Of a stretch of 64,000 nt of DNA, positions 39,667 to 59,715 are shown piece after piece. The stretch comes from Parasutterella muris (GTDB lineage: Bacteria > Pseudomonadota > Gammaproteobacteria > Burkholderiales > Burkholderiaceae_F), in the NCBI RefSeq assembly GCF_009767915.1, contig NZ_WSRP01000001.1:62001-126000 (forward strand), in the 5' to 3' direction. Both the position numbers and the translations under genes were made by a program. How positions within the stretch are numbered: the stretch's first letter is position 1; the number at the start of each line of letters is the position of its first letter. Below the pieces are notes generated by a model. It did no database searches, was not told the DNA's origin, and was given only the letters and a program-made list of their open reading frames with translations.

Positions 39667-40410
39667 CTATTCCTTTCGAGACGATTCTTTAATTTGTTCC
39701 GATGTTTGGCCAAAACGTCTCTCTCTGCCTGCATACCAAGCTAAAGCATCGGAAAATTCTTTTTCACCAAAATCCGGCCACAGGATGTCTGTGAAATAAA
39801 GTTCACTATAGGCAAGCTGCCAGAGCATAAAATTGCTGATCCGAATCTCTCCGCTGGTGCGGATAAAAAGATCCACATCACCGGACTCTGCCATTGGCAG
39901 ATTTGCGCTCAGCTGCTCTTGTGTAAACTCTGCGCCGCTGTCCCTGATCTTTCTTGCCGCCTCTAAAATCTCCCAGCGGCCGCCGTAATTAATACAGAGA
40001 TTCAGCGTAATCGCTTTATTGTTCTCAGTTTTGCGCTCCGCTTCGTCTATTTCTCTGCGCAGTTCTGCGGAAAAAGCGCTCAAATCTCCGATAAATCGGA
40101 TCCGAACGCCGGATTTATGCAGCGATTCAATTTCCTTGCGCAAAGACGAAAGAAAGAGCTTCATCAAGCCCTGCACTTCCTCTTTCGGTCGGTTCCAATT
40201 CTCACTGGAAAAGGCAAACAGAGAAAGATGACAGACACCGGCTTTCGCGGCGCCCTGCAGCACACGACGAACGCTCTCTACCCCTTTTTGATGTCCGACA
40301 AGACGCGGAAGCATACGCTTTTTTGCCCATCTTCCGTTGCCGTCCATAACAATAGCCACGTGCCGGGGCACCCGAGCACATGGCTTTTCGTTTGTATTAC
40401 TACCCGGCAT
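39667..40410 (-). CDS. uppS: Undecaprenyl diphosphate synthase
   Basis: 247 residues. cis-prenyltransferase building the C55 carrier for peptidoglycan and O-antigen. Signature VAIVMDGNGRWAKKR with the catalytic Asp, then GHQKGVESVR, FAFSSENWNRP, and LFIRTSGEIRISNFMLWQLAYSE near the end. It sits between frr and cdsA. Confidence 0.97.
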   Translation of the reverse strand: MPGSNTNEKPCARVPRHVAIVMDGNGRWAKKRMLPRLVGHQKGVESVRRVLQGAAKAGVCHLSLFAFSSENWNRPKEEVQGLMKLFLSSLRKEIESLHKSGVRIRFIGDLSAFSAELRREIDEAERKTENNKAITLNLCINYGGRWEILEAARKIRDSGAEFTQEQLSANLPMAESGDVDLFIRTSGEIRISNFMLWQLAYSELYFTDILWPDFGEKEFSDALAWYAGRERRFGQTSEQIKESSRKE

Positions 40411-40425
40411 AGGGTGCGAACCGTA

Positions 40426-40986
40426 CTAAACGGTCATAATTTCTTTTTCTTTCTCTGCGGAAAGCTTATCGATCTCTCCGATGTACTTATCGGTGAGTTT
40501 CTGGATTTCCGTATTAGAGCGGCGCTCATCGTCTTCAGTGATCTCTTTCTCTTTCAGAAGAGCGGCGACCTTGGTATTGGCGTCGCGACGCAGATTGCGG
40601 ACAGCAACCTTGCAGTCTTCGGCTTCACCGCGGACGACTTTTGTAAGATCACGACGGCGCTCTTCAGTCAGAGGAGGCATCGGAACACGGATAACATCGC
40701 CGGATGTAGCGGGATTCAGACCGAGGTCGGAATTGCGGATCGCTTTTTCAACAACAGCAACCATTTTCTTTTCCCACGGCTGAACGGTGATCGTACGCGC
40801 ATCGGCAAGACCAAGCTGGGCAACCTGGCTGATGGGGGTCGGTGAGCCGTAGTAATCAACAGTGATATGTTCGAGCAGGCCGGTATGAGCGCGTCCTGTA
40901 CGAATCTTCATAAAAGAGTCTTTAAGCGTCTCAATGGAACGCTTCATGTGATGTTCAGTCTGTGAAAAAATCTCTTTTGTTGTCAT
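40426..40986 (-). CDS. frr: Ribosome-recycling factor
   Basis: 186 residues, typical (185). It splits post-termination ribosomes with EF-G. Conserved [15 protein letters not shown] near the N-terminus, [40 protein letters not shown], and the [10 protein letters not shown] end. Usually pyrH directly precedes frr; here 485 bp containing a divergently read small gene and two terminators separate them, so frr must have its own promoter. Confidence 0.97.
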
Positions 40987-41235
40987 ATATCAGTAACCTG
41001 TCTAATTTCTTGCTGGTAAATCAATTCCGCTGTCAAGCGGATGCGGTCTTCGTAAAGTCTTAATCCTCTGAGTTTATCATGGTTTTCCACACGGATGACA
41101 GCCGCAAGCCCTATGAAAAGTTACCATTTGACGCAAGTCTTTTCCCGCCGCTCTTTCTGCTCGATTCGAGCGGCAGGAGCCTGCGCACTTTAGCCTCTGA
41201 GCTATTCTGAAACGTCGATGTTAGAGGAGAAAGAC

Positions 41236-41367
41236 ATGGCAAAAATCGAAAAAATGTTCAACGGCATTCTTAAGGATCAGGAACAAAAAAGCGATGAACT
41301 TCGCGAAAAGATCCAAGCCGAAAACAAAATGAAAGAAGAGAAGAAAGAACACAAAGAAAGCAAATAA
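41236..41367 (+). CDS. Small ORF, 43 codons, between frr and pyrH
   Basis: ATG at 41236 with AGGAG six bases upstream; product MAKIEKMFNGILKDQEQ... ending HKESK, 43 residues, no Cys or Trp, strongly Lys/Glu-rich and probably one long amphipathic or coiled-coil helix. A perfect GC-rich terminator follows 28 bp after the stop on the same strand. Ribosome site, frame and terminator together argue for a real expressed gene, although the product is not recognised. It is read opposite to both flanking operons. An alternative is a small RNA with a fortuitous frame. Confidence 0.6.
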   Translation: MAKIEKMFNGILKDQEQKSDELREKIQAENKMKEEKKEHKESK

Positions 41368-41395
41368 CACTTCCTCTGTATTCATCCTTTATACC

Positions 41396-41418
41396 GCCCG
41401 GCCTGTCCGGGCTTTTTA
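41396..41418 (+). terminator. Terminator of the 43-codon gene
   Basis: GCCCGG - CCTGT - CCGGGC followed by TTTTT, the canonical rho-independent form on the plus strand. Confidence 0.85.
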
Positions 41419-41424
41419 ATGCAT

Positions 41425-41448
41425 GAAAAAAGCCGGGAAATTCCCGGC
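41425..41448 (-). terminator. pyrH terminator (end of rpsB-tsf-pyrH)
   Basis: GCCGGG / CCCGGC stem with a 5-base loop; on the minus strand it is followed by TTTTTTC. It lies 24 bp after the pyrH stop, convergent with the small gene's terminator. Confidence 0.85.
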
Positions 41449-41471
41449 CCATGGTTCAATTCTCTCGGAGC

Positions 41472-42197
41472 TTAGAGATGAACGAGCGTGCCCTCGTCTT
41501 CTCCGAGCACAACGCGTTTGAGCGCGCCCGGTTTGTGCAGATTGAAGACGCGGATCGGCATGCCCTGATCGCGGCACAGCGTAAACGCGGTCGCGTCAAG
41601 AATCTTCAGTTTCTTCTGAATCGCTTCATCAAAAGAAATGGACTTATAGAGCTTAGCGTCCGGATCTTTTTTCGGATCCGCAGAATAAACTCCGTCAACC
41701 TGTGTGGCCTTCAGCACCATATCGGCGCCGATTTCAGCGCTACGAAGCGCTGCGGCGGTATCCGTTGTAAAGAACGGATTGCCGGTACCAGCGGCAAAGA
41801 TCACAACACGGCCCTTCTTTAGATGACTCAGGGCTTTTCCGCGAATATACGGCTCAGCAACCTGATCAATATCAAGAGCGCACTGAACGCGGGCTTCAAT
41901 GCCGCTGTTGCGCAGCGCATCCTGAAGCGCCATAGCGTTCATGCAGGTGGCGAGCATACCCATATAGTCGCCGGTGGCACGGTCCATACCGGTTGAACCA
42001 AGCGCAACACCGCGGAAGATATTGCCGCCGCCGACTACGATGGCAAGCTGGACACCCAATTTCACAACTTCAGATATCTCACCGACGATGCTTTTCAGCG
42101 TGTCGCGGTTAATACCGAAGGCTTTGTCGCCCATCAGGGCTTCGCCGGATAATTTAAGAAGAATCCGTTTTGTCTTTGTTTGTCCAGTCTCACTCAT
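41472..42197 (-). CDS. pyrH: Uridylate kinase
   Basis: 241 residues. Amino-acid-kinase-fold UMP kinase (UMP to UDP), hexameric and GTP-activated in proteobacteria. Motifs: [59 protein letters not shown]. It follows tsf by 23 bp and ends at a terminator. Confidence 0.97.
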
Positions 42198-42220
42198 CTT
42201 TTGCTCCGAATTAAGAGAAA

Positions 42221-43108
42221 TTAAACGCGCGCAGCAGCGACCTGAGCAGCAACTTCAGCCGCGAAGTCGTTGGAGCGTTTTTCCATACCTTCGCCAACTA
42301 CAAAGAGGGCAAATGAAGATACTGTAGCATTGTTGGACTTCAGAAGCTGACCAACTGTCTGCTTGTCGTCTTTAACGAACGGCTGAGAAAGAAGCGTAAC
42401 TTCTTTGAGGAACTTCTGAACGGAGCCTTCAGCGATACGTTCGATCATGTTCTCAGGTTTGTTGGCTTCGTGAGCTTTTTCAATCGCAACGCGGCGTTCT
42501 CTTTCGATCAGTTCAGCGGGAATACCGGACTGATCAAGAGCTTTCGGCTTGGAAGCGGCGATGTGCATCGCGACGTCATGAGCAACTTCATCGGTACCAC
42601 CGATAACGTCAACGATAACGCCGATCTTGGAGCCGCCGTGGATGTATGTAGAGAGCTTGCCCTTGCCTTCAAGGATCTGGAAGCGGCGAACAGTGATGTT
42701 TTCACCGATCTTGCCGATAAGCGCCTTACGCTTTTCTTCGACAGTGGTGTCGCCAATCTTAAGCTGACCGAGAGCTTCAAGATCAGCCGGCTTGTGATCA
42801 GCAACGAGTTTGGCGATTTCATCGGCGAAAGCGATGAAATCTGCGTTCTTCGCAACGAAGTCGGTTTCAGAGTTCAGCTCGACGATAGCGCCGTTCTTAC
42901 CGTTTTCATCAATGTAGATCGCAACAACACCGTCAGCAGTAATACGGCTGGCAGCTTTAGTTGCTTTGTTGCCAAGCTTGACGCGCAGAATTTCTTCTGC
43001 TTTTGCAAGATCACCGTCAGCTTCTGTCAAAGCCTTCTTGCACTCCATCATCGGAGCGTCGGTTTTAACACGAAGTTCTTTGACCATAGCGGCAGTTACA
43101 ACAGCCAT
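42221..43108 (-). CDS. tsf: Elongation factor Ts
   Basis: 295 residues. Guanine-nucleotide exchange factor for EF-Tu. N-terminal UBA-like domain [25 protein letters not shown], then the core with [13 protein letters not shown] hairpin lies in the 86-bp gap after rpsB, matching the usual S2/EF-Ts expression step-down. Confidence 0.98.
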
Positions 43109-59211: not shown

Positions 59212-59287
59212 GCGGGAGTAGCTCAGTTGGTAGAGCGCAACCTTGCCAAGGTTGAGGTCGCGAGTTCGAGACTCGTCTCCCGCTCCA
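59212..59287 (+). tRNA. tRNA-Gly (GCC), copy 1
   Basis: 76 nt with encoded CCA. Acceptor GCGGGAG / CTCCCGC, anticodon loop TTGCCAA, T-loop TTCGAGA. All arms pair. Confidence 0.97.
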
Positions 59288-59299
59288 ATAATTTTTGTT

Positions 59300-59373
59300 G
59301 GCGCGATAGCAAAGCGGCTATGCAGCGGATTGCAAATCCGTTTAGAGCGGTTCGACTCCGCTTCGCGCCTCCA
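59300..59373 (+). tRNA. tRNA-Cys (GCA)
   Basis: 74 nt with encoded CCA. Acceptor GGCGCGA / TCGCGCC, anticodon stem GCGGA / TCCGT around TTGCAAA, T-arm AGCGG / CCGCT. Confidence 0.97.
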
Positions 59374-59379
59374 GTGAAT

Positions 59380-59455
59380 GCGGGAGTAGCTCAGTTGGTA
59401 GAGCGCAACCTTGCCAAGGTTGAGGTCGCGAGTTCGAGACTCGTCTCCCGCTCCA
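59380..59455 (+). tRNA. tRNA-Gly (GCC), copy 2
   Basis: Identical in sequence to copy 1. It begins the first 130-bp tandem unit. Confidence 0.97.
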
Positions 59456-59509
59456 CAAAAACAAAAAATTAGTGTACAATTCGGTCTTCGTTGTTGATCA
59501 GCGATGAAT

Positions 59510-59585
59510 GCGGGAGTAGCTCAGTTGGTAGAGCGCAACCTTGCCAAGGTTGAGGTCGCGAGTTCGAGACTCGTCTCCCGCTCCA
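59510..59585 (+). tRNA. tRNA-Gly (GCC), copy 3
   Basis: Identical to copies 1, 2 and 4; preceded and followed by the same 54-bp spacer. Confidence 0.97.
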
Positions 59586-59639
59586 CAAAAACAAAAAATT
59601 AGTGTACAATTCGGTCTTCGTTGTTGATCAGCGATGAAT

Positions 59640-59715
59640 GCGGGAGTAGCTCAGTTGGTAGAGCGCAACCTTGCCAAGGTTGAGGTCGCGAGTTCGAGAC
59701 TCGTCTCCCGCTCCA
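59640..59715 (+). tRNA. tRNA-Gly (GCC), copy 4
   Basis: Identical to the other copies; followed by the cluster's terminator. Confidence 0.97.

Follow-up and report, generated by a model that had tools for sequence, protein, structure and literature searches.

A probably translated, lineage-restricted microprotein gene between pyrH and frr in Parasutterella muris

What is the short open frame, read on the opposite strand, that lies between pyrH and frr in Parasutterella muris: a gene for a small protein, a small RNA, a control element of its neighbors, or a chance opening in A-rich DNA? We addressed this question in a window of 64,000 nucleotides (contig NZ_WSRP01000001.1, positions 62,001 to 126,000), which is the whole stretch of DNA analyzed here. 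The best explanation overall, and one that we consider probable, is a lineage-restricted gene for a translated microprotein, with the gene making up a transcription unit by itself.

The microgene, its signals, and the pyrH-frr gap

The neighborhood reads rpsB-tsf-pyrH-frr-uppS, and every gene in it was named by NCBIfam. Both flanking genes, frr for ribosome recycling factor (40426..40986; TIGR00496) and pyrH for UMP kinase (41472..42197; TIGR02075), are on the minus strand, so the microgene on the plus strand is divergent from frr and convergent with pyrH. The original prediction had described a 43-codon frame on the opposite strand to both, with an AGGAG and a terminator 28 nt past its stop, and the frame and its signals were located as described. 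The gene occupies 41236..41367 (plus strand, stop included, 43 amino acids), an assignment based on homologues and a codon-position signal; a Shine-Dalgarno sequence, AGAGGAG, is at 41223..41229 (plus strand), its AGGAG 6 nt before the ATG; and a putative intrinsic terminator stem-loop begins 28 nt past the stop at 41396..41412 (plus strand), with a T-run at 41413-41417. The hairpin has six pairs, all G-C, and a loop of five, followed by TTTTT; when the segment 41368-41418 was compared with dinucleotide shuffles, its fold had a z of -2.9 and 1 of 200 shuffles was equally good. A start at the in-frame ATG of 41218 would extend the product to 49 amino acids; homology begins at 41236, and the Shine-Dalgarno sequence precedes the 41236 codon. 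The intergenic stretch from frr to the microgene is about 250 nt long, and a scan of 40000-42600 for sigma-70-like promoters found none for the microgene (one site, elsewhere, versus 2.0 expected).

A predicted intrinsic terminator of pyrH, a hairpin with T-tail at 41430..41450 (minus strand), faces the microgene convergently. It had been proposed that pyrH gained this terminator along with the open frame; the comparison with relatives speaks otherwise. frr was found in 64 of the 67 family genomes, and among the best 30 of those loci, which were used for the gap counts, 28 had a readable pyrH close by. The pyrH-frr gap measures 17-39 bp in eight of these 28 and 82-485 bp in the other 20, and 17 of the 28 gaps contain hairpin-plus-T candidates in a scan run without shuffle control. 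The T-rich candidates (5-7 T of 8) include those after pyrH in G063, G064, and G036, whose gaps have no such frame. Because these three close relatives carry pyrH terminators without the frame there, the pyrH terminator did not arrive with it; judging from these gaps, the wide spacing and the pyrH terminator are found also where the microgene is absent. One locus, L033 (G037:C154), has frr without a readable pyrH inside the 1.5 kb flank, unlike the 28 of 30.

Conservation and evidence for translation

A homologue is present once per genome, at significant E-values, in all three Parasutterella genomes searched (1.6e-20, 6.0e-13, and 1.3e-8). The lack of conservation that would have refuted the original prediction was not seen: the frame is kept in these three and in one metagenome-assembled genome (MAG) of Turicimonas, G064. 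The G064 homologue was matched at E 2.7e-7 in a single-sequence search and at 9.2e-25 with profile A1, of which G064 is itself a row. Clear matches were thus obtained in four of the 67 family genomes (the three Parasutterella are counted among the 67), and of the two sister-genus genomes one, the Turicimonas MAG, has the frame; the comparison covers four sequences, from two genera. The named records with a homologue are Parasutterella excrementihominis YIT 11859, an uncultured Parasutterella MAG, and the uncultured Turicimonas MAG. No further genome was matched at E 0.001 among 399 sampled from the order (two matches, both already known) or among 369 sampled from the class (one match, the window's own). 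Other matches in the wider family (best profile E 0.0524, best single-sequence E 0.0837) were treated as chance and set aside because in most rows they were short, stop-interrupted, or within longer frames. The 339-bp pyrH-frr gap of the Turicimonas-group genome G063 offered a candidate for a decayed copy, which we also rejected: mononucleotide shuffles looked suggestive (as good in 0 of 300 for G002, 8 of 300 for G001, and 22 of 300 for G000), but 137, 200, and 507 of 1000 dinucleotide shuffles were as good.

The microgene directly adjoins pyrH in all three Parasutterella and adjoins frr in two of them; in the third, the contig starts 108 bp before the ATG. A ribosome-binding-like stretch, read by eye as GGAG- or GGGGA-type, precedes the start in all four homologues, that of G002 being GGGGA. 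In G064, the locus reads argG-microgene-holC, then valS, with the microgene in the same direction as holC. argG was not found by tblastn in the stretch around holC examined in the three Parasutterella.

Differences at codon positions 1/2/3 number 10/7/22, 9/6/18, and 13/7/24 in the three Parasutterella pairs, a third-position excess with binomial p of 0.0025, 0.0097, and 0.0030 for pairs that are not independent of one another. Because differences cluster at third codon positions, the microgene is very probably translated, and we are highly confident that it represents a translated gene. The dN/dS check suggested at the outset yielded only half of its ratio among Parasutterella: dN was 0.22-0.35, and dS was not computable by NG86, which we read as saturation. 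The first 33 codons of the sense frame are free of stops, and the codons that differ there are synonymous in 8 of 13, 6 of 18, and 9 of 22 cases. The antisense frame in the same register is open too, with 0 of 13, 2 of 18, and 2 of 22 synonymous; moved by one base, the antisense frame reaches as many as the sense frame (8 of 15, 5 of 17, and 10 of 23) and contains stops. DNA similarity between G000 and G001 is high from the ATG on and low upstream.

The upstream palindrome and rival explanations

An 11-bp palindrome, CTCGATTCGAG, is located at 41160..41170 (plus strand) between frr and the microgene and may be an operator. It is found upstream of frr in all three Parasutterella (window 41160-41170, L002 1425-1435, and L061 1501-1511). 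The form GCTCGATTCGAG has a single occurrence each in G000 and G001, exactly 77 nt before the ATG when counted from its preceding G; in G002, the core CTCGATTCGAG is on the frr contig, 142 bp upstream of frr. The palindrome was spotted post hoc in G000 and G001, and the G002 site is an independent match. It may act on the microgene, on frr, or on both. The end of the G002 frr contig (L061, G002:C42:13071-13175) carries coding sequence with which two other contigs (L065 and L066) begin; since this sequence is common to three contig ends, a multi-copy (IS-like) element is probably inserted between frr and the microgene in G002.

Two larger roles for the palindrome were considered and rejected. 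A regulon is not indicated, as CTCGANTCGAG is not enriched genome-wide: it occupies 2, 2, and 1 distinct places in G000, G001, and G002 versus 5, 3, and 0 for a control pattern, and of the extra places, the one in G000 falls within a long ORF and the one in G001 between a pair of ORFs, with no sign of orthology. We also dismissed a long, covarying RNA hairpin that would enclose the palindrome: the G000 and G001 regions do fold into extended hairpins, and flank shuffles fold as well in 42 of 2000 (G000), 185 of 2000 (G001), and 1955 of 2000 (G002). The 11-bp palindrome itself stands.

Could the DNA or the RNA matter here rather than the protein? The presence of CTCGATTCGAG upstream of frr in all three Parasutterella, together with its staying on the frr contig in G002, whose end sequence recurs at three contig ends, would suit a cis element, i.e., a unit that serves to insulate frr from tsf-pyrH or to tune it through divergent transcription, with the protein secondary. 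However, hairpin-plus-T insulation of pyrH-frr is present in relatives without the frame, and the protein is kept in G064 away from frr, so that we regard this reading as quite unlikely. A small regulatory RNA with an incidental frame, or a dual-function RNA, seems very improbable: the stand-alone unit with an intrinsic terminator and the long stretch, some 250 nt, that separates frr from the frame would fit it, whereas the substitution pattern is of the protein type, the fold of the frame is no better than that of shuffles (z -0.77), and no Rfam model matched the region at its gathering score (a miRNA model gave a chance match only, E 0.65).

That the frame is open merely by chance is extremely improbable in our judgment. 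43 codons is short, A-rich DNA yields Lys and Glu codons, many ORFs of similar length occur nearby, and the same-register antisense frame is open as well, but the frame is conserved in three species with a third-position excess and has a homologue in the sister genus. It is likewise very unlikely, if slightly less so than the regulatory RNA, that a small mobile or selfish cassette, e.g., half of a toxin-antitoxin pair, landed between genes. The insertion site does differ between Parasutterella and Turicimonas G064, and G063 and G036 keep argG next to holC with no microgene between them. On the other side, the microgene is single-copy in each genome at significant E-values, the ORF list shows one gene between the two terminators and frr with no second gene alongside, PADLOC gave no match, the phage, plasmid, and viral collections lack it, and neither Pfam nor NCBIfam returned a toxin or an antitoxin.

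Predicted product, possible mode of action, and significance

Lys and Glu make up 47% of the product encoded in the window and 34-47% over the four homologues. Their net charge ranges from -2 to +5, and since it varies, charge itself is not conserved. What is shared are 14 invariant columns of 50 in the alignment of the four sequences, centered on QEQKS, with hydrophobic residues F8, L12, L22, and I26. AlphaFold2, given the four-row alignment, predicted a single helix over residues 2-42 with a mean pLDDT of 92.8; please note that, for a solitary helix rich in Lys and Glu, even such a high value tells little about function. The hydrophobic moment of the core exceeds the shuffle average but is not significant in any of the four (it is reached or exceeded by a fraction of 0.054, 0.089, 0.081, and 0.149 of shuffles), so amphipathicity is weak. 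No Pfam family scored above cut-off (best E 0.013, 16.1 bits versus a cut-off of 29.5), NCBIfam and PHROGs gave no significant match (best E 0.74 and 0.64), PADLOC gave no match at all, and neither PDB sequences nor the phage, plasmid, and viral contig collections matched the microprotein significantly. The description first given, of a Lys/Glu-rich helix without a recognizable family, is borne out by these searches. None of the titles and abstract openings found in literature searches mentions the gene, although it may have been published all the same.

Orphan bacterial microproteins of fewer than 50 amino acids are likewise short and intergenic, with their own Shine-Dalgarno sequence and terminator, and are likewise limited to one or two genera with no catalogued family. 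Nothing distinguishes the microgene from this kind, and its four-member family matched no model in the libraries searched; on the sequence evidence, it is a real gene for a lineage-restricted microprotein of an ordinary kind. Sra and RMF, small ribosome-associated proteins, are small, charged, and soluble like the microprotein; the microprotein differs from them in having no Pfam or NCBIfam match.

How might such a protein act? The original prediction named ribosomes, nucleic acid, and larger enzymes as possible targets. In our reading, the product would be a single amphipathic helix that stands free, with a conserved face and core (F8, L12, Q15-S19, L22, I26, A28, E29, and K31) that would dock on a larger cellular partner whose gene lies elsewhere; the variable Lys/Glu tail would serve only to keep the helix soluble. 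Docking is suggested by the combination of a conserved core with a variable charged tail, and we offer this partner-binding mechanism tentatively. PyrH or Frr seems less likely as the partner, since the G064 copy, lying between argG and holC, speaks against a role linked to either of their genes. A more ambitious proposal, that Parasutterella and Turicimonas share a new family of single-helix regulators that dock on a housekeeping partner, with a dedicated repressor reading the palindrome at 41160-41170, appears unlikely to us. The microgene would be more important if its partner belonged to the translation or replication machinery; nothing here points there.

Annotation has a blind spot for genus-restricted microproteins that match no library model, and Parasutterella is a genus of the gut. 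The conserved core of the microprotein is ready-made for tagging and pull-down. Elsewhere in the window, five tRNA matches fall within about 500 bp at 59212-59712, four of them with an identical score (68.5 bits), as a tandem tRNA cluster.
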